Assembly (NCBI GenBank): GCA_902790215.1
Contig: CADAQX010000003.1
Location: 62,001 to 126,000 of the forward strand
DNA from: an uncultured Bacteroidota bacterium
GTDB taxonomy: Bacteria > Bacteroidota > Bacteroidia > Bacteroidales > P3
Reading direction: 5' to 3'
DNA length: 64,000 bases
A model generated the notes under the pieces. That model was given only the letters and a program-made list of their open reading frames with translations, made no database searches and was not told the origin of the DNA. Numbering within the stretch: the first letter of the stretch is position 1; each line of letters begins with the position of its first letter. Below are positions 42,362-62,397 of the stretch, piece after piece. The position numbers were made by a program, and so were the translations under genes.

Positions 42362-43093
42362 ATGGATTTTGAAGAGCTAAAAAGAAAAATCGAAAAACTC
42401 TATATGGCTTTTTTCAAAGACATGAACATTGATTTCCAGACAGGTATTGTGAAAGGAACAAACAAAAGATTCTCGGGTTACCCCTACATTGGGAAAAACT
42501 ATGTCTCAGCTCCGTTAAGAATTCTGTTTATCCCTTTGGATTGTGGAGAGGACGAATGCAGAAATGAAAACACTTACCACTCATTTGTGAGTAGGGAAGA
42601 TATTTTCAAAGAGGGAAAACTTGATTTTAACGATCACATTGCTGGAGTTTATGCAACAGCATTAAGATTACTGAAAGACAAGATGCAACTCAAGGATGCT
42701 TGGGACACCTTGTGGAAATATAATGAGTATACAGCAAAGAAGGCAATTCGGCTAGCTGATGCACACGGTTTACTTCCACGAGACTTAATGACTTATGTTG
42801 CATATGAAAACAGATTCCGCTTTGTTACCGTAAACAGAAAGGAAAGAACAGGAGATTCTGATAGGGAATGGATTAATGCGGAAAAAGAATGTAAGTTATT
42901 AATGGATGAAATCGCAGTTTTTAATCCTGATATAATTGTTTTTCAAGGGATAAAAGGTATTGATAATTGTGGAATTAATGAATTAAAGAAGCAATACAAA
43001 GTTGTTGTTGCCTATCATCCATCATGTTGGCAAAGAGGCGCAAATAAATTACATTATATTGAAGAAAAAATCATGCCGATGCTTTCTCTGTGA
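42362..43093 (+). CDS. UDG-superfamily-like protein (A)
   Basis: 243 residues, A/T-rich. The layout follows the uracil-DNA glycosylase fold: strand APLRILFIPLDCGEDE (about 50-66) at the place of motif 1, a helix with the strand PDIIVFQGIKG (about 198-208), and a late AYHPSCWQRG (about 222-231) where family members carry HPS at motif 2. Compare the product of 43915, which has APLRVLFLTKDQ, ADIIVCCGYSN and NWHFSARKS in the same order. The motif 1 aspartate of active UDGs is not clearly conserved. Substrate unknown. Own promoter. The alternative is a Rossmann-like protein without glycosylase activity. Confidence 0.5.
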   Translation: MDFEELKRKIEKLYMAFFKDMNIDFQTGIVKGTNKRFSGYPYIGKNYVSAPLRILFIPLDCGEDECRNENTYHSFVSREDIFKEGKLDFNDHIAGVYATALRLLKDKMQLKDAWDTLWKYNEYTAKKAIRLADAHGLLPRDLMTYVAYENRFRFVTVNRKERTGDSDREWINAEKECKLLMDEIAVFNPDIIVFQGIKGIDNCGINELKKQYKVVVAYHPSCWQRGANKLHYIEEKIMPMLSL

Positions 43094-43109: not shown

Positions 43110-43152
43110 AATGGGGTGTGTCATGATGTGGCACACCATTGTTGTATTTTTG
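43110..43152 (+). promoter_or_regulatory. Hairpin-promoter module, copy 1
   Basis: Inverted repeat 43115-43137 (left arm GGTGTGTCAT, loop GAT, right arm GTGGCACACC; ten pairs with two wobbles), followed by the -7 box TATTTTTG at 43145-43152 and then GCTGTTGAAAAA. The -33 position falls inside the palindrome. The same layout recurs at 46656 and 47882. Confidence 0.6.
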
Positions 43153-43178
43153 CTGTTGAAAAAAAAAGACGCTAAGAT

Positions 43179-43850
43179 ATGCAAAAAGATAAAGACGACA
43201 TTGGCCAGCTGCGCAAGCGGCTGCAGGATTGCGAGGATTATATACTGCGTATTGCAAAGCCATTTGATGGCTATTGGGACAAGGCGACGGAGGAGGTGAT
43301 TGACGACCACCTGGGCACGCGGAAATGGATACTTGACGAGATGTTCGAGAAGCACGCCACCGAGGCCGAGGTGCGGCGCTTCGAGGTGGTCAATGAGAGG
43401 CTGCTGGCGATGACGAAGCAGTTGAACGAGCGTCACCTCACGTTGCAGGACCAGATGTCCGCCATCCATACTCTTGGTGGCAAACCCTTCGAGTTGGAGA
43501 CCACCCTCCTCTACTGTCACAACGATGAAAATCCGCAACTCTTCACGATGGAGGAGGATGCTTTCTACGGCTCGCGGTGGAGCGAGATGCTGTGGGTTAT
43601 TGGGGAGAATTCACGGCTGGACGATATCTGCTGGTGCTGTGGCAATCATGTCTGCAACCTCGACGACGGCCAGACCTGGGCCGAAGGTCCCCTCTGTATC
43701 CCGCTGCTCGACCACCTCTGTGTCTGCTACGCCGTCCACGCCCTCTGCACCCACATGCGCTACTCCATCCCCGACCTCCTCCGCATGACCACCTACGCCT
43801 TCAACTACCAGATAAACACGAATGTCGACCCCATACTGTTTGAAGGATAA
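43179..43850 (+). CDS. Unrecognised cytosolic protein
   Basis: 223 residues. The N-terminal 75 residues are helical and charged, likely a coiled-coil (QKDKDDIGQLRKRLQDCEDY). The C-terminal half contains a cysteine-rich stretch DDICWCCGNHVCNLDD (about 148-163), which could bind zinc, then a hydrophobic helical part. Higher GC than both neighbours, which suggests a separately acquired cassette. It is driven by the hairpin-promoter module. I do not recognise a family. Confidence 0.5.
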   Translation: MQKDKDDIGQLRKRLQDCEDYILRIAKPFDGYWDKATEEVIDDHLGTRKWILDEMFEKHATEAEVRRFEVVNERLLAMTKQLNERHLTLQDQMSAIHTLGGKPFELETTLLYCHNDENPQLFTMEEDAFYGSRWSEMLWVIGENSRLDDICWCCGNHVCNLDDGQTWAEGPLCIPLLDHLCVCYAVHALCTHMRYSIPDLLRMTTYAFNYQINTNVDPILFEG

Positions 43851-43876
43851 AATGCACCTGTATCAGAAAATATTCG

Positions 43877-43884
43877 TATTTTTG
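43877..43884 (+). promoter_or_regulatory. -7 box of the UDG-like/PLD/Nmad operon
   Basis: TATTTTTG followed by C, 30 bp before the ATG at 43915. Confidence 0.65.
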
Positions 43885-43914
43885 CATAGTAAACAAACAA
43901 CTATTTAATGCATT

Positions 43915-44712
43915 ATGAAAGACTTTGTTGCTGAGAATGAAAGAATTCTCGAAAAATGGAGGAAACACAATGAAGAGTGGCATGAGACAAATTTTGCTGA
44001 TGATGGGATAATGTATCGTGGAGTAATCAAGACGATAGAGAATGGCACAGAACGCTATTCTGATGGAAAACAAGAAAACGAAATGTGGAATAAAGCTCCA
44101 TTGCGAGTTCTATTTCTAACAAAGGATCAAAATGCAGGTGGATATGACGCTTGGGATGTTAGGGGAGAAACAGGCAATCTATCCTATGCATTCTTTCGAA
44201 ATCTAATGTATCAGTTATATGGATTAGTCAACACAAAGCCAGGATACAAAGCTGATTATATATTTACAAATGAACAGGCGATTGAACTATACAATACGTT
44301 TCCTATTGCGAGAATTAATGCGAAGAAAGAAGCTGGCGGCAATTCTGTCTCAAACAACACATTAAGGTATTATATAGAAAGAGACAAAAAGTTACTTAAA
44401 GAACAGATACTAAATTTAGATGCAGATATAATTGTTTGTTGTGGCTATTCGAATTGCATAGAAGAAAGTGGTAACTTATTGCTGAATTTCTTAAAGAGTG
44501 AGTGTTACAAAGGTTTAGATAATAGGGATGATAGTGGATGGGTTGATGATGATGGTTGGGTATATTATGATACGAAAGAAAACAAGATAGCCATCAATAA
44601 TTGGCATTTTAGTGCAAGAAAGAGTTCCGAAGAATGGTATAATAGTGTGACTAATGCATATCAAATCTTTCTTAACACTCATCCTAACTTCACAAAAACT
44701 CATAGGAATTGA
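43915..44712 (+). CDS. UDG-superfamily-like protein (B)
   Basis: 265 residues, A/T-rich. Segments RVLFLTKDQNAGGYDAWD (about 61-78), FPIARINAKKEAGGNS (about 130-145) and LKEQILNLDADIIVCCG (about 160-176) resemble a group of proteins classed in the uracil-DNA glycosylase superfamily, in which an INLKKxxGG motif and a DIIVCGG strand are typical. The late motif is NWHFSARKS instead of HPS. Distant paralog of the 42362 product. First gene of an operon with a PLD nuclease and two Nmad proteins. It would act on a modified or damaged base, but this is inference. Confidence 0.55.
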   Translation: MKDFVAENERILEKWRKHNEEWHETNFADDGIMYRGVIKTIENGTERYSDGKQENEMWNKAPLRVLFLTKDQNAGGYDAWDVRGETGNLSYAFFRNLMYQLYGLVNTKPGYKADYIFTNEQAIELYNTFPIARINAKKEAGGNSVSNNTLRYYIERDKKLLKEQILNLDADIIVCCGYSNCIEESGNLLLNFLKSECYKGLDNRDDSGWVDDDGWVYYDTKENKIAINNWHFSARKSSEEWYNSVTNAYQIFLNTHPNFTKTHRN

Positions 44713-45221
44713 TACACTTCATCGCAGACAAGGAGCATTACACACAGGTGTTGGCACTTTGTGAGAAGGTCAAGCACGATTTGTGGATTGGTACTGCCGA
44801 CCTGAAGGATTTGTATGTGGAGGGAGGTCGGGATGTGGTTCCGTTTCTGTCGGTGCTCGACAAGCTGCTTAAACAGGGTGTCGATGTGCGGCTGCTTCAT
44901 GCCAAAGAACCAGGAGAGAATTTCCGCGAGGATTTCGACAAGTATCCTGGGTTGTGGGGCAGTTTGGAGCGGAGACTCTGCCCAAGGGTGCATTTCAAGA
45001 TTATGATTTTCGACTGCTCGGTGGCCTATATCGGCTCCGCCAACCTCACCGGTGCCGGAATGGGTATGAAAGGCGACAACAACCGCAACTTCGAGGCCGG
45101 CATCCTCACCGACGAGCCATCGCTGGTGGATGCTGCCGCCGACCATCTCGACAGCGTCTGGCAAGGACTCCGCTGCAAGACCTGCAAGCGCAAGGATTTC
45201 TGCGGGGACAGGATTGGATAA
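44709..45221 (+). CDS. PLD-like nuclease (single HKD motif)
   Basis: 170 residues. The start is a TTG at 44709, overlapping the previous stop by 4 bp (ttga), which fits translational coupling. The motif VHFKIMIFDCSVAYIGSANLTGAG (about 97-120; shown in parts: HFK then D, then GSANLT) is a complete HxKx4D...GSxN phospholipase D signature. With only one copy, the enzyme would act as a dimer like the nucleases Nuc and BfiI. A short cysteine cluster CKTCKRKDFC closes the protein. It is clearly richer in GC than the genes on both sides, so the operon is a mosaic. Confidence 0.75.
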   Translation: MIHFIADKEHYTQVLALCEKVKHDLWIGTADLKDLYVEGGRDVVPFLSVLDKLLKQGVDVRLLHAKEPGENFREDFDKYPGLWGSLERRLCPRVHFKIMIFDCSVAYIGSANLTGAGMGMKGDNNRNFEAGILTDEPSLVDAAADHLDSVWQGLRCKTCKRKDFCGDRIG

Positions 45222-45246
45222 AAACATTTTACAAAACAGATGAGAC

Positions 45247-45840
45247 ATGAAAGGAGAAAGATTTCTTTATTGTTATAAGATGACTCATGATACTGGATTT
45301 GCACCAAATCCATATCATGGTGTATTGACTTTGGCTACATGCAAACCCACAATTCGAAGGTGTGCAGAAATAGGTTATTGGATTTCTGGATGGACTTCTA
45401 ATAAGGTTCAAGGGAAAAAACAGAAGTACACTTTTAGTGATGATAGTCAAAAACTAATCTATCTGGCTAAAGTAAGTGATAAAATGCTCATTAAGGATTA
45501 TTGGGAAAAATATCCAGAGAAGCGACCCTCGCCCAATGATTGGGTTAACGATTTTGGTGACAACATTTATGAACCCCTAAGCGGTGATGATTTCCATCAG
45601 CACAATAATGGCGGAGGACACAATTCCACTAATATAAAACGGGACTTAAGTGGAAAGTATGTTTTGATTTGCAATGAGTTCTACTACTTTGGTGTGGAGA
45701 ATGCAATACCTATCAATGTAGAGAAAGGATTTGTCGTGCATCGATTAAATAAACTCTCATTAGAAAACAATAGTGCAAAGAAGATTATTGATCAAGTCAT
45801 TAACAACTATAAACCCGGAATAGTTTACCCTTTATCATGA
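45247..45840 (+). CDS. Nmad2-like protein (nucleotide modification associated)
   Basis: 197 residues. The opening FLYCYKMTHDTGFAPNPYHG then LTLATCKPTIRRCAEIG and WISGW matches what I know of the Nmad2 domain, named by Aravind's group for its gene neighbourhoods with DNA base hypermodification enzymes. The biochemical role is unknown; a nucleotide- or base-binding fold is proposed. Later blocks include GDDFHQHNNGGGHNS, a His/Asn/Gly-rich loop that might be an active site. It is 25 bp after the PLD gene and overlaps the Nmad3 gene by 4 bp, so the two are made together. Confidence 0.65.
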   Translation: MKGERFLYCYKMTHDTGFAPNPYHGVLTLATCKPTIRRCAEIGYWISGWTSNKVQGKKQKYTFSDDSQKLIYLAKVSDKMLIKDYWEKYPEKRPSPNDWVNDFGDNIYEPLSGDDFHQHNNGGGHNSTNIKRDLSGKYVLICNEFYYFGVENAIPINVEKGFVVHRLNKLSLENNSAKKIIDQVINNYKPGIVYPLS

Positions 45841-46634
45841 AAATCATATTAAGCAGAAAAGGCTTTGATTCTTCGAATGGAAAGCAGCCTAACCCAATTA
45901 TGCCAGATGGGACACTTTTGTCTTTGCCAATTCCAGACAAAGATGGTAACAATACATTTGATTCTTTATTATGGGATGGCGTGAGTTATTATGACATTAT
46001 CAGTTCATTGAAACCCAAAACAAAACTACAGCCAAAAGATTATTGCCACTTAGATCCCGATTTAAGAAAAGAATTAAAGGACAGACTTCCGGGTTGGATG
46101 CCAGCCTTTGGACAAGCCGGTAGTGCATTAACTCATTTGCGAAATCATGGAGTCACTGAAGGAGATTTGTTTCTGTTTTATGGCTGGTTTAAAGAAACGG
46201 AAGTAATTAATGGAAAGTTAGCATACAAGAAGGGAGCAAGAGACTTACATGTGATTTATGCCTATATGCAAATTGGGGAAATTGTCGAGCAAATGGACAA
46301 AGCCCCGGAGTGGTTGAAAGATCATCCCCATATTGGTGACCAAAAAGTAAGGAATGATAAAAAAAATGCAATATTCTTGCCGACTGAATGGTTGTCTTTT
46401 ATGGATAACATTAAAGGATGCGATGTACTTACCTATCGAAAGGATAGAATGTTGACCAAAGAAGGAATGACGAGGCGCTGTTGGGACTTGCCTGCTTTCT
46501 TTAGGGATGTGGACATCAGCAACAATCCCAATTCCTGGAAGGATGATTATTTCCTTTCTGCTGCCATAGGGCAAGAGTTCGTTATTGATGCCACTCAAGA
46601 AATAATGAACTGGGTAAGAAAAATCATTTTGTGA
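45837..46634 (+). CDS. Nmad3-like protein (nucleotide modification associated)
   Basis: 265 residues. The N-terminus MKIILSRKGFDSSNGKQPNP, then PDGTLLSLPIP, is the hallmark start of the Nmad3 domain; later LPGWMPAFGQAGSALTHLRN and GDLFLFYGWF also fit. Function unknown; like Nmad2 it travels with base-modification genes and mobile elements. Overlap of 4 bp with Nmad2. Its last gene position is followed by the hairpin at 46656, which can stop the operon. A/T-rich codon use, as for the Nmad2 gene. Confidence 0.65.
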   Translation: MKIILSRKGFDSSNGKQPNPIMPDGTLLSLPIPDKDGNNTFDSLLWDGVSYYDIISSLKPKTKLQPKDYCHLDPDLRKELKDRLPGWMPAFGQAGSALTHLRNHGVTEGDLFLFYGWFKETEVINGKLAYKKGARDLHVIYAYMQIGEIVEQMDKAPEWLKDHPHIGDQKVRNDKKNAIFLPTEWLSFMDNIKGCDVLTYRKDRMLTKEGMTRRCWDLPAFFRDVDISNNPNSWKDDYFLSAAIGQEFVIDATQEIMNWVRKIIL

Positions 46635-46655
46635 TTTTATCTTTTTTGTAAAAAA

Positions 46656-46699
46656 AAAGCAGGAGTGTCATGATATGGCACTCCTGTTTTGTATTTTTG
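46656..46699 (+). promoter_or_regulatory. Hairpin-promoter module, copy 2
   Basis: Inverted repeat with arms 46656-46671 and 46675-46690 around the loop GAT: 16 pairs with wobbles, core GGAGTGTCAT / ATGGCACTCC. Then the -7 box TATTTTTG at 46692-46699 and GCAGTCAGAAAAA. It can end the Nmad operon and start transcription of 46732. Confidence 0.6.
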
Positions 46700-46731
46700 C
46701 AGTCAGAAAAAGACAAGTAATAATATGACTT

Positions 46732-47590: not shown

Positions 47591-47945
47591 TTGCCTCTTG
47601 TAAAATGATGGGCACACCACTATGGGGCACACTTTTCTTTTATTTAGCAGTCGAAAGGACTAAGAACATTTTGTGTGCTCTGCAAGGACACAATAGGTGG
47701 ATTGATTGACATAACCAATTGTCGGTACCACATACCCCGAAGGAACACTATAGTTACCCTATATGCACCCAAAAGATGATGAGAATGGGAGCAAAAGGGG
47801 AGCAAAACCAATAGATATATTATGCGGTGATAGTCAATATAATTGAAGTAACCACACACCCCAGTAAATATAGATTATATGTATGTCATGAAATGGCATA
47901 AAGTTGCTGTATTTTTACATCTCGAAAAAAATAAATCTTTATGTT
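47591..47945. other. Gene-free region with decayed module
   Basis: 355 bp. At 47606-47660 a degenerate relative of the hairpin-promoter module is visible (gggcac... tatggggcac, then TTTATTTAGCAGTCGAAA), but no gene starts after it within 280 bp, so a gene may have been lost. The minus-strand frame at 47644-47859 does not look like a protein. Copy 3 of the module closes the region. Confidence 0.45.
47882..47917 (+). promoter_or_regulatory. Hairpin-promoter module, copy 3
   Basis: Arms TATGTCAT (47882-47889) and ATGGCATA (47893-47900), loop GAA, eight pairs with one wobble. -7-like box TATTTTTA at 47910-47917, then CATCTCGAAAAA. It lies 28 bp before the ATG at 47946. Confidence 0.55.
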
Positions 47946-48691: not shown

Positions 48692-49687
48692 ATGGAAAAC
48701 ATCAACGACAAGATAATTATCTACCAAACTGCCGACGGGGTGACCAACCTGGAGGTGAAAATGGATTATGATACGGTCTGGCTGACACAGGCTCAGATGG
48801 TTGAGTTGTTTCAAACTACAAAACAGAATGTTAGCTTGCATGTAAATAATGTTTACAAGGAATGTGAGCTTGAGGAAAAATCAACTGTCAAGGAATACTT
48901 GACAGTTCAAAATGAAGGTAAACGTAGCGTTAGACGTATGGTCAAATACTATAACCTTGATGTCATCATCTCTGTAGGCTACCGTGTGAAAAGCCAAAGA
49001 GGCACACAGTTCCGCATCTGGGCTAACCGTGTGTTGAAGGATTATCTTGTCAAGGGCTATGCCGTGAACGAGCGGATACACAAAGAGCAGATTGGAGAGC
49101 TTCGGCAGCTGGTGGGAATGCTTGGGCGGACTATACAGAACCAGCCGTTGCTCTCGACCGACGAGACCAACGCGCTCTTCAACGTGGTGACCGACTACAC
49201 CTACGCACTCGACACTCTCGACAGCTACGACTACCAACGGCTCACCGTAAGCGACACCACCAGTGAGGCCGCTTTCCATGCTACCTACGACAACGCCATG
49301 CAAGCCATCCTCTCGCTTAAAGAACGGTTTGGCGAGAGTGCCCTGTTTGGCAACGAGAAGGATGACTCGTTCAAGAGCTCCATCGGGCAAATATACCAGA
49401 CATTCGACGGCGTGGAGCTGTATCCCAGCACCGAGGAGAAGGCCGCCATGTTGCTCTACCTTGTCACCAAGAACCACTCCTTCAGCGACGGGAACAAACG
49501 CATTGCCGCCACCCTGTTCCTGTGGTTTCTGAATAATAATCGTATCCTCTACCGCGAGGATGGGAGCAAACGCATTGCTGACAATACCCTTGTGGCTCTC
49601 ACGCTAATGATCGCCGAGAGCCGTCCCGAAGAGAAAGACGTGATGGTGAAAGTAGTAGTGAACCTTATTAACAAGAACAACCTATGA
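48692..49687 (+). CDS. RhuM-Fic fusion protein
   Basis: 331 residues. The N-terminal half (about 1-130) is RhuM-like: VWLTQAQMVELFQTTKQNVSLHVNNVYKE in parts, a phage-antirepressor type DNA-binding region, then DVIISVGYRVKSQRGTQFRIWA. The C-terminal half has a Fic/Doc domain with HSFSDGNKRIAATLFLWFL (shown in parts; about 276-294), where the general Fic motif is HxFx(D/E)GNxR. The Lys in GNKR is typical of Doc-like kinases or AMP transferases. It probably modifies a host target; RhuM-Fic proteins are known from mobile islands. Co-translated with the WYL gene (4-bp overlap). Confidence 0.8.
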   Translation: MENINDKIIIYQTADGVTNLEVKMDYDTVWLTQAQMVELFQTTKQNVSLHVNNVYKECELEEKSTVKEYLTVQNEGKRSVRRMVKYYNLDVIISVGYRVKSQRGTQFRIWANRVLKDYLVKGYAVNERIHKEQIGELRQLVGMLGRTIQNQPLLSTDETNALFNVVTDYTYALDTLDSYDYQRLTVSDTTSEAAFHATYDNAMQAILSLKERFGESALFGNEKDDSFKSSIGQIYQTFDGVELYPSTEEKAAMLLYLVTKNHSFSDGNKRIAATLFLWFLNNNRILYREDGSKRIADNTLVALTLMIAESRPEEKDVMVKVVVNLINKNNL

Positions 49688-50595
49688 CGCCTCTGAAGAA
49701 ATATATCTGGCTTGTTGATACCGTGATGAAGGCGGGCAATGTGGGGTTGACGCTCCAACAAATTGCCGATGCCTATTATTTCAATGACGATATTAATGGT
49801 GGTCGGCTTTATTCTGACCGCACCTTCCATCGTCACCGCGAGGAGATAAAGGATATTTTCGGAATAGAGATTGAATGTTACGTGTCGGGAGGCGTGTATC
49901 GTTATCGTATAGCCGACAGCGGCAAGAACGGCTATTTCCGTCAGTGGTTGCTAAACTCCATTGCTGTGAATCGGATTGTGATGGACAGCCAAGAGTTGGC
50001 ACAATATATCGCCATAGAAGAGAGTCACACCGACCCACTGCCTGCCATACTCCAGGCCATGAAAGAGTTGCGGATGATGAAGTTCGACTATGGCCCCTAT
50101 TGGCGCGACAATGTGACGCACTACACCGACTTCCGACCCCATGCGTTGAAGATGTTTGAACGTCGCTGGTACGTGGTCGGCAAGTACACTGAGGATATGG
50201 CGCATCATATCTTTGCGCTGGATAGGATTAGCAACATTGAAATCCAAGAGGAGACATACACCAGAGACCCCAATTTCGATGTGGAGGAGATGTTTAAGGA
50301 CAGCTATGGCATCATTCTTAGAGAAGAGGTGGAGGTGGAGAGTGTCTGGATTAAAGTGGATGCCTTTCAGGCCAACTATCTGCGGTCGCTCCCGTTGCAT
50401 CACTCCCAAATAGAACTGAGACGGAATGAGGAATACTCTGTCTTCTCGGTTCGTGTGCGTCCGACATTTGACTTCCGGCAGCAATTGCTGTCGTTGGGCA
50501 GCAGGGTGGAAGTGCTAAAGCCGGAATCCTTAAGAGCAGAAATGAAAGAGGAGATTGCAAGCATGTTGTCTAAATACACACATGACGACGAATAA
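49684..50595 (+). CDS. WYL-domain transcriptional regulator
   Basis: 303 residues. An N-terminal winged-helix-like part (about 1-70, IWLVDTVMKAGNVGLTLQQIADAYY), a middle WYL domain (about 135-210, with ALKMFERRWYVVGKYTEDM, close to the RWYLVA core) and a C-terminal extension (WCX-like, about 225-303). WYL proteins bind single-stranded nucleic acids or nucleotides and often regulate defence genes. It overlaps the RhuM-Fic stop by 4 bp and closes the island. It may control the island's promoters; not shown. Confidence 0.85.
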   Translation: MTPLKKYIWLVDTVMKAGNVGLTLQQIADAYYFNDDINGGRLYSDRTFHRHREEIKDIFGIEIECYVSGGVYRYRIADSGKNGYFRQWLLNSIAVNRIVMDSQELAQYIAIEESHTDPLPAILQAMKELRMMKFDYGPYWRDNVTHYTDFRPHALKMFERRWYVVGKYTEDMAHHIFALDRISNIEIQEETYTRDPNFDVEEMFKDSYGIILREEVEVESVWIKVDAFQANYLRSLPLHHSQIELRRNEEYSVFSVRVRPTFDFRQQLLSLGSRVEVLKPESLRAEMKEEIASMLSKYTHDDE

Positions 50596-61986: not shown

Positions 61987-62397
61987 TTACAAACTCCTTA
62001 CTATGTTCAGAAACTCTGCGAGCGTCCGCACATCGACCTTTGGGAAGTCATAATGCTGGAGTTCACTGAAGTGGCGGTCATTGCTGACAATATAGGTGGC
62101 ACCCGCCGTAATGGCGCAATCTACAAACTTGTTGTCATCGGGGTCGGTAGTAATCATGTTGAAGCGAAAAGCAGGGCTTATACGAATAACGTTAGGTGTC
62201 TCTATCAACTCCTTAAGTACGGTATTAGCAATAATGTTGTTGTATCGTTTTGCTAAAATCTCATGGTACTCAAAAAGGATTTCGTTGGAGACACACAACT
62301 TGTATTTGCCTGCACGGAACGCTTGCCAGATGTCATTGTTGTACGACCCTGGCATGATGACATTGACAAGACAGTTTGTATCGAGAACTATTTTCAT
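61987..62397 (-). CDS. PIN-domain toxin of pair 2
   Basis: 136 residues from the ATG at 62397. MKIVLDTNCLVNVIMPGSYN, EILFEYHEILAKRY, DPDDNKFVDCAITAGA and VSNDRHFSEL give the four acidic PIN positions. About half the residues are shared with the toxin at 59485. It overlaps its antitoxin by 4 bp. Confidence 0.85.
   Translation of the reverse strand: MKIVLDTNCLVNVIMPGSYNNDIWQAFRAGKYKLCVSNEILFEYHEILAKRYNNIIANTVLKELIETPNVIRISPAFRFNMITTDPDDNKFVDCAITAGATYIVSNDRHFSELQHYDFPKVDVRTLAEFLNIVRSL

Follow-up and report, generated by a model that had tools for sequence, protein, structure and literature searches.

A four-gene operon of an uncultured Bacteroidales bacterium that sets the Nmad2-Nmad3 pair beside a PLD nuclease and a divergent UDG-superfamily-like protein

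The 64,000-nucleotide window analysed here (positions 62,001 to 126,000 of contig CADAQX010000003.1, assembly GCA_902790215.1, from an uncultured bacterium of the Bacteroidales) contains four tandem open reading frames (ORFs; called at a minimum of 50 aa) on the forward strand, at 43915-46634, which encode in order a divergent protein resembling the UDG superfamily (P1), a single-HKD nuclease of the PLD family, and the proteins Nmad2 and Nmad3 (Table 1). The parts of this operon are known separately, and their assembly looks recent and directed against viruses with altered DNA. The ORF coordinates bear out the original prediction, made from the sequence alone, of four packed genes with two 4-bp overlaps, which lie at the P1/PLD and Nmad2/Nmad3 junctions, the gap between PLD and Nmad2 being 25 bp; the predicted promoter ahead of the first gene likewise has a counterpart in a promoter-like GTATTTTTGCA at 43876. 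The hairpin placed after the fourth gene exists as a palindrome at 46660-46686, but it belongs to a repeated element that heads the next gene. An upstream UDG-like gene, U0, was absent from that prediction.

Table 1. Features of the four-gene operon and its surroundings (positions in the window; pLDDT, predicted local distance difference test)
Feature	Position	Strand	Description
P1	43915..44712	+	divergent UDG-superfamily-like protein, 265 aa; D71 and H231 kept
PLD	44709..45221	+	single-HKD PLD-family nuclease, 170 aa; C-terminal Cys cluster; TTG start
Nmad2	45247..45840	+	197 aa; Pfam E 8e-45; EVE/YTH/ASCH-like fold predicted, model pLDDT 92
Nmad3	45837..46634	+	265 aa; Pfam E 8e-64; EVE/ASCH-like fold predicted, model pLDDT 93
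U0	42362..43093	+	second UDG-superfamily-like protein, 243 aa; Pfam UDG E 0.057, below cut-off
c22	43179..43850	+	unknown protein, high GC; resident gene upstream of exchange point
Promoter-like GTATTTTTGCA of four-gene operon	43876..43886	+	
Palindrome + promoter -7 box element, copy 1	43119..43153	+	heads c22
Boundary element, copy 2: 27-bp palindrome then GTATTTTTGCA	46660..46701	+	heads 194-aa gene

Profile searches placed Nmad2, Nmad3 and the PLD nuclease above the curated cut-offs. The proposed identities of the two Nmad proteins are secure, as both Pfam profiles matched far above these thresholds (Nmad2, PF18753, 153 bits against 26.1; Nmad3, PF18754, 216 bits against 27, over the full length). 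Predicted models of both proteins resemble binding domains, EVE/YTH/ASCH for Nmad2 and EVE/ASCH for Nmad3, and the Foldseek match list was mixed; a fold of the PUA superfamily (EVE/YTH/ASCH) is thus predicted for both. The idea that the Nmad proteins make the modified base is not supported by these models, and a role as modifying enzymes was rejected on this ground; given that Nmad3 retains many invariant polar residues, some enzymatic activity is nevertheless conceivable. The two proteins most likely act as a pair that recognises a modified base or nucleotide in the DNA of an invading phage. Sequence profiles of Nmad2 and Nmad3 compared with the PDB yielded nothing useful, and no assigned function for either protein was found in the literature searched; one paper concerns a phage Nmad5 protein directed against the Tmn defence (PMC11846954).

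The nuclease matched Pfam PLDc_2 (E 1e-10, 41.9 bits against a cut-off of 27) and carries an HxK(x4)D motif at residues 95-102, in agreement with the single-HKD PLD nuclease originally proposed. The closest curated PLD family is DrmC of DISARM (NCBIfam, 41 bits, E 1.5e-10), and the DrmC models of PADLOC gave weak matches; assignment to DrmC was rejected, since 41 bits fall short of the equivalog cut-off of 133. The start codon, TTG here and ATG in most relatives, is overlapped by the stop of P1. Matches to PLD occurred in 71 of 190 genomes of the family, a figure that is not a count of intact genes because several of the matches are fragments. The 79 stretches examined held 76 full-length copies (L074 and L190, probably the same genome, being counted twice) and 12 partial matches, before or behind many unrelated genes. 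PLD is a promiscuous gene. Across the genus, it was seen in many unrelated contexts (L184-L254), partial copies among them, with a DnaQ-like exonuclease gene behind it in several. Restriction enzymes of the PLD type have been reported to work without divalent cations (PMC10273834).

The assignment of the first gene to the UDG-like proteins stands in part. P1 gave no match to the Pfam UDG profile (PF03167) at E 0.1 and was rejected as a member of that family at the curated cut-off, but remote profile matches were obtained. A P1 family profile built from 10 relatives matched the archaeal UDG structure 4zbx in the PDB (E 0.0031), together with 4zby and 4zbz, in the C-terminal part. Against a two-sequence alignment of family-5-like UDG, the same profile reached a probability of 50% (E 1.6e-4) over about 57 columns, and none of five unrelated control profiles exceeded 0.3% with this target; a second UDG set gave 11%, and family-1 UDG gave no signal (0.4%), as was also the case for the other UDG-like candidates, the family numbers being those presumed for the reference sequences. 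Residues D/E71 and H231 are retained in all 10 relatives aligned and would represent the two UDG motif positions. Because of the profile matches and these kept residues, there is moderate support for regarding P1 as UDG-superfamily-like. By profile comparison, U0 is related to the P1 family (probability 92%, E 5e-7), and in two other loci (L189 and L192) it stands directly 3' of PLD. Three further candidates were a 229-aa UDG-like protein behind PLD in L050 (Pfam UDG E 0.0017, below the cut-off), a 382-aa protein of L196 (99.8% against U0, less than 1% against known UDG) and a 202-aa protein of L074 (47% against the P1 family, less than 2% against known UDG). Two proteins, of 536 aa (L095) and 196 aa (L104), resembled UDG by eye only; profile comparison gave 3% at most. 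PADLOC contained no match for P1, Nmad2 or Nmad3 at E 0.1.

The Nmad2-Nmad3 pair is conserved across several bacterial phyla, and Nmad3 alone also occurs in archaeal genomes. The loci compared were the best 80 of 276 Nmad3 relatives from genome contigs, two of them without a called Nmad3 ORF; Bacteroidales and Firmicutes supplied most of them, the rest reaching as far as Campylobacterota and including three archaeal metagenome-assembled genomes (MAGs) or single cells, and the two closest relatives (98-99% identity) belonged to an uncultured Bacteroidetes and a Bacteroidales MAG. A same-strand Nmad2 lay directly upstream in 40 of the 78 loci with a called Nmad3 ORF, 21 of the 78 showing the exact 4-bp overlap. 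Nmad2 stood elsewhere in one locus and was not found in 37, four of which had less than 700 bp upstream, and the Nmad2 profile used may miss remote members; none was detected in the three archaeal loci (L114, L117 and L118). Similar-looking large proteins were seen directly upstream of the pair in L077, L079, L081, L085, L086, L096, L103 and L126, with a DSP-PTPase phosphatase domain in L126, no Pfam match in L077 and sub-threshold matches only in L085. A protein of 529-536 aa takes the place of Nmad2 directly upstream of Nmad3 in L094 (8367-9956) and L095 (8376-9986), and its by-eye likeness to UDG found no support in profile comparison. Among 296 genomes of the phylum, 11, counting the one that holds the window, had an Nmad3 above the cut-off, and Nmad2 occurred in 5 of 189 family genomes (G000, G360, G404, G333 and G316). 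In sequence collections, Nmad3 had matches on eight viral contigs and in two plasmid records that carry no annotation; searches of phage collections with P1, Nmad2 and Nmad3 returned no match, and PHROGs no useful one.

The other two genes of the operon follow the pair far less regularly. PLD was present in only 4 of the 80 Nmad3 loci and was therefore rejected as a general Nmad partner, and the window's type of P1 was found in none of the 80, one locus (L087) containing a P1-related 260-aa protein 1.7 kb behind Nmad3. PLD directly preceded Nmad2 only in L074 among these loci, with genes for 109 and 202 aa in the place of P1. Among the five family genomes with Nmad2, PLD lies directly upstream of it in G000, G360 and G404 (where the contig ends inside Nmad2), two genes intervene in G333, and no PLD was found in 14 kb of G316. 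The full four-gene order, the conservation of which the original prediction made a test of its claim, had no second case among the genomes searched and was rejected as a conserved arrangement; only parts recur.

One such part is the succession of P1 and PLD. P1 matched at 57 places in 52 of 190 family genomes, and all five copies that are at least 47% identical across most of the protein (G000, G330, G482, G452 and G384) are followed at once, on the same strand, by PLD. In two of the five (G330 and G482) that PLD is truncated, and in a third (G384) it is broken. A P1 relative at 31% identity (G472) also precedes PLD; the exception is a piece at 54% identity (residues 2-86) in G410, which has no PLD behind it, the sole PLD match of that genome being on another contig. 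Beyond these genomes, P1 matched one plasmid record (26%) and one viral contig (25%). Most of the P1 matches are proteins of about 256 aa with 30-36% identity, common in the genus and in several cases located in shared chromosomal surroundings, a distribution that would suit a house-keeping role in which P1 and PLD process damaged host bases while Nmad2 and Nmad3 deal with damaged nucleotides. The patchy occurrence of Nmad2 and Nmad3, the low GC content and the defence-type neighbours (RhuM-Fic, WYL) make such base repair very improbable.

The composition of the locus indicates a mosaic history. The guanine-cytosine (GC) content is 56% for c22 and 55% for PLD, versus 36% for U0, 35% for P1, 36% for Nmad2 and 39% for Nmad3. 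In another locus (L187), c22 and PLD are neighbours, 44 bp apart with nothing between them, and the promoter stretch that lies ahead of P1 in the window directly precedes PLD. From the low GC and this adjacency with a common promoter stretch, low-GC cargo appears to have been inserted between the resident promoter and PLD, and behind PLD. The same GC split and the uninterrupted c22-PLD neighbourhood also fit a looser interpretation, in which PLD and c22 are the resident flanks of a recombination hotspot, and P1 and the Nmad2-Nmad3 pair are separate cargo that merely shares a promoter, each module working alone. The substitution of P1 in L074 points in the same direction, as do the occurrence of P1-PLD without Nmad2 in G330 and G384 (G452 and G482 also lying outside the five Nmad2 genomes) and of PLD-Nmad2 without P1 in G404. 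Against independent passengers stand the translational coupling of P1 and PLD, the fidelity of the close P1 copies to PLD (the G410 piece excepted), and the position of PLD next to Nmad2 in three of the five family genomes that have the latter; this interpretation is a tentative one, to be taken seriously.

Elsewhere, Nmad2 keeps company with UDG in operons of an immune type. On a prophage-like contig (L073, 6584-9476), the order is TIR (ThsB-like), Nmad2, MazG_C and UDG, with the UDG above the Pfam cut-off (31.1 versus 24.3 bits), and the annotation of plasmids from Cupriavidus basilensis, Beijerinckia indica and Mesorhizobium shows this arrangement again. These operons (L073, and L314, L315 and L316 on plasmids of Alpha- and Betaproteobacteria) were seen near other TIR, SIR2 or CBASS genes. 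Nmad2 matched 17 plasmid records, of which a non-random choice of 6 was inspected: TIR stood directly upstream of Nmad2 in five and a MazG-type gene with UDG downstream in four, one of the four being a Rhizobium leguminosarum plasmid in which the distance is 2.3 kb. Of the remaining two, a Sinorhizobium plasmid combines Nmad2 with TIR, a methyltransferase, thymidylate synthase and a nucleotide kinase, whereas on a Parabacteroides plasmid its company is TIR, a radical SAM protein and a nucleotide kinase. In G316, the order is a 5-hydroxymethyldeoxyuridine (5-hmdU) kinase domain protein, thymidylate synthase, Nmad1, a 502-aa protein, TIR and Nmad2. The base-modification and immune setting suggested for Nmad2 gains support from both the TIR-Nmad2-MazG_C-UDG and the 5-hmdU kinase-thymidylate synthase-Nmad1 operons. 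Because profiles of TIR, MazG_C and the L073-type UDG had no match in the 80 Nmad3 loci, two lineages appear to exist.

The UDG-Nmad2 link, together with the operon layout, would also accord with the single fixed pathway of the original prediction, in which P1 excises a modified base, PLD cuts at the abasic site and the Nmad proteins make or bind the modified nucleotide. This pathway is quite improbable in view of the absence of the four genes together from every other genome searched, the reader-like Nmad models and the broken PLD behind three of the five close P1 copies. The four-gene defence claim had real genes and the correct theme, but overstated their unity.

The explanation that we favour, with a probability of about 45%, is that defence parts with separate lines of inheritance came together only recently, in a variable island, to form the operon and, co-expressed, would serve a modification-directed defence. 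The old core would be the Nmad2-Nmad3 pair, reading a modified base or nucleotide in the DNA of an invading phage; PLD would be the resident nuclease, from a family known to cut without divalent metal, and P1, as a divergent member of the UDG superfamily, would probably excise or hold on to a modified base. The analysis itself shows the genes present, the folds predicted for both Nmad proteins, the mosaic history and the tie of Nmad2 to UDG in other operons, from which modified-base binding, catalysis by P1 and PLD, joint action of the two halves and an effect on phages are inferred. The Nmad readers may mark foreign DNA, which excision by P1 and strand cleavage by PLD would destroy, these steps either following the reading or running in parallel, so that the overall mode would be type IV-like or Brig-like. 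A more specific proposal, speculative and rather unlikely, is that in this lineage a two-protein reader of hypermodified phage bases, made up of Nmad2 and Nmad3, is wired to a UDG-family glycosylase and PLD, with modification-dependent restriction achieved through base excision and separate strand cutting, as a nuclease-coupled counterpart of TIR-Nmad2-MazG_C-UDG.

Several known systems bear partial resemblance to this operon. Brig1 and Brig3 are UDG-superfamily glycosylases of defence islands, directed against phages with modified cytosine (PMC11078745, PMC13160076), to which P1 would correspond as a UDG-superfamily-like protein; the best structural match of Brig1, the S. tokodaii UDG 4ZBY, is the protein matched by the P1 profile. 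Brig3 is co-operonic with a helper, BapA (PMC13160076), and the accessible portions of the two descriptions contain no PLD or Nmad partner. EVE-nuclease restriction of modified DNA (VcaM4I and EVE-PLDc fusions, PMC7641849) likewise joins a PUA-superfamily reader to a nuclease, PLDc included, whereas the window has separate proteins, two putative readers and a UDG-like protein in addition; Nmad is not mentioned in the available part of that source. The TIR-Nmad2-MazG_C-UDG and 5-hmdU kinase-thymidylate synthase-Nmad operons have Nmad2 with a UDG-superfamily protein in an immune setting, to which Nmad2 and the UDG-superfamily-like P1 of the window would correspond. The window differs by the presence of Nmad3 and PLD, and its ten scanned genes include neither TIR nor MazG_C nor a modification kinase. 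The DefensePredictor study names both NMAD and UDG in its legend of predicted systems, and NMAD also in that of validated ones (PMC13092281); as available, these legends do not tell which NMAD is meant, nor whether NMAD and UDG share one system. Among the literature matches listed, whose coverage is partial, no description of a glycosylase with phospholipase D in defence, or of the Nmad combination, was present. What makes the locus interesting is not so much the set of four genes as the reader-like pair and the recurrent association of Nmad2 with UDG-superfamily proteins: both Nmad families are widespread, and the reader-like fold, the conservation of the pair and the UDG company suggest the testable idea that they sense hypermodified phage DNA, which, if true, would extend the base-excision immunity of the Brig type to systems with dedicated readers and a nuclease.

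Three units of the island are headed by a repeated element (43119-43153, 46666-46700 and 47884-47918), TGTCAyGAwnTGrCA-N10-GTATTTTTGC, a palindrome at a fixed distance from a promoter -7 box. With one mismatch allowed, the element has exactly three matches in the 2.98-Mb genome. A looser pattern had 54 copies in 2.47 Mb of fetched, partly overlapping loci and none in mononucleotide-shuffled sequence. The pattern of the element itself had no match in a sample of 294 other genomes from the order, which included only three from the family of the window. In copies compared by eye, the outer arms vary yet stay complementary. The element may act as a shared operator or form a terminator-promoter boundary, and the palindrome at 46660-46686 could still act as a terminator. 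Further downstream, at 48692-50595, a RhuM-Fic fusion (PADLOC PDC-S23, E 1e-143) overlaps a WYL regulator, and a WYL match was present in 19 of the 82 Nmad loci scanned.

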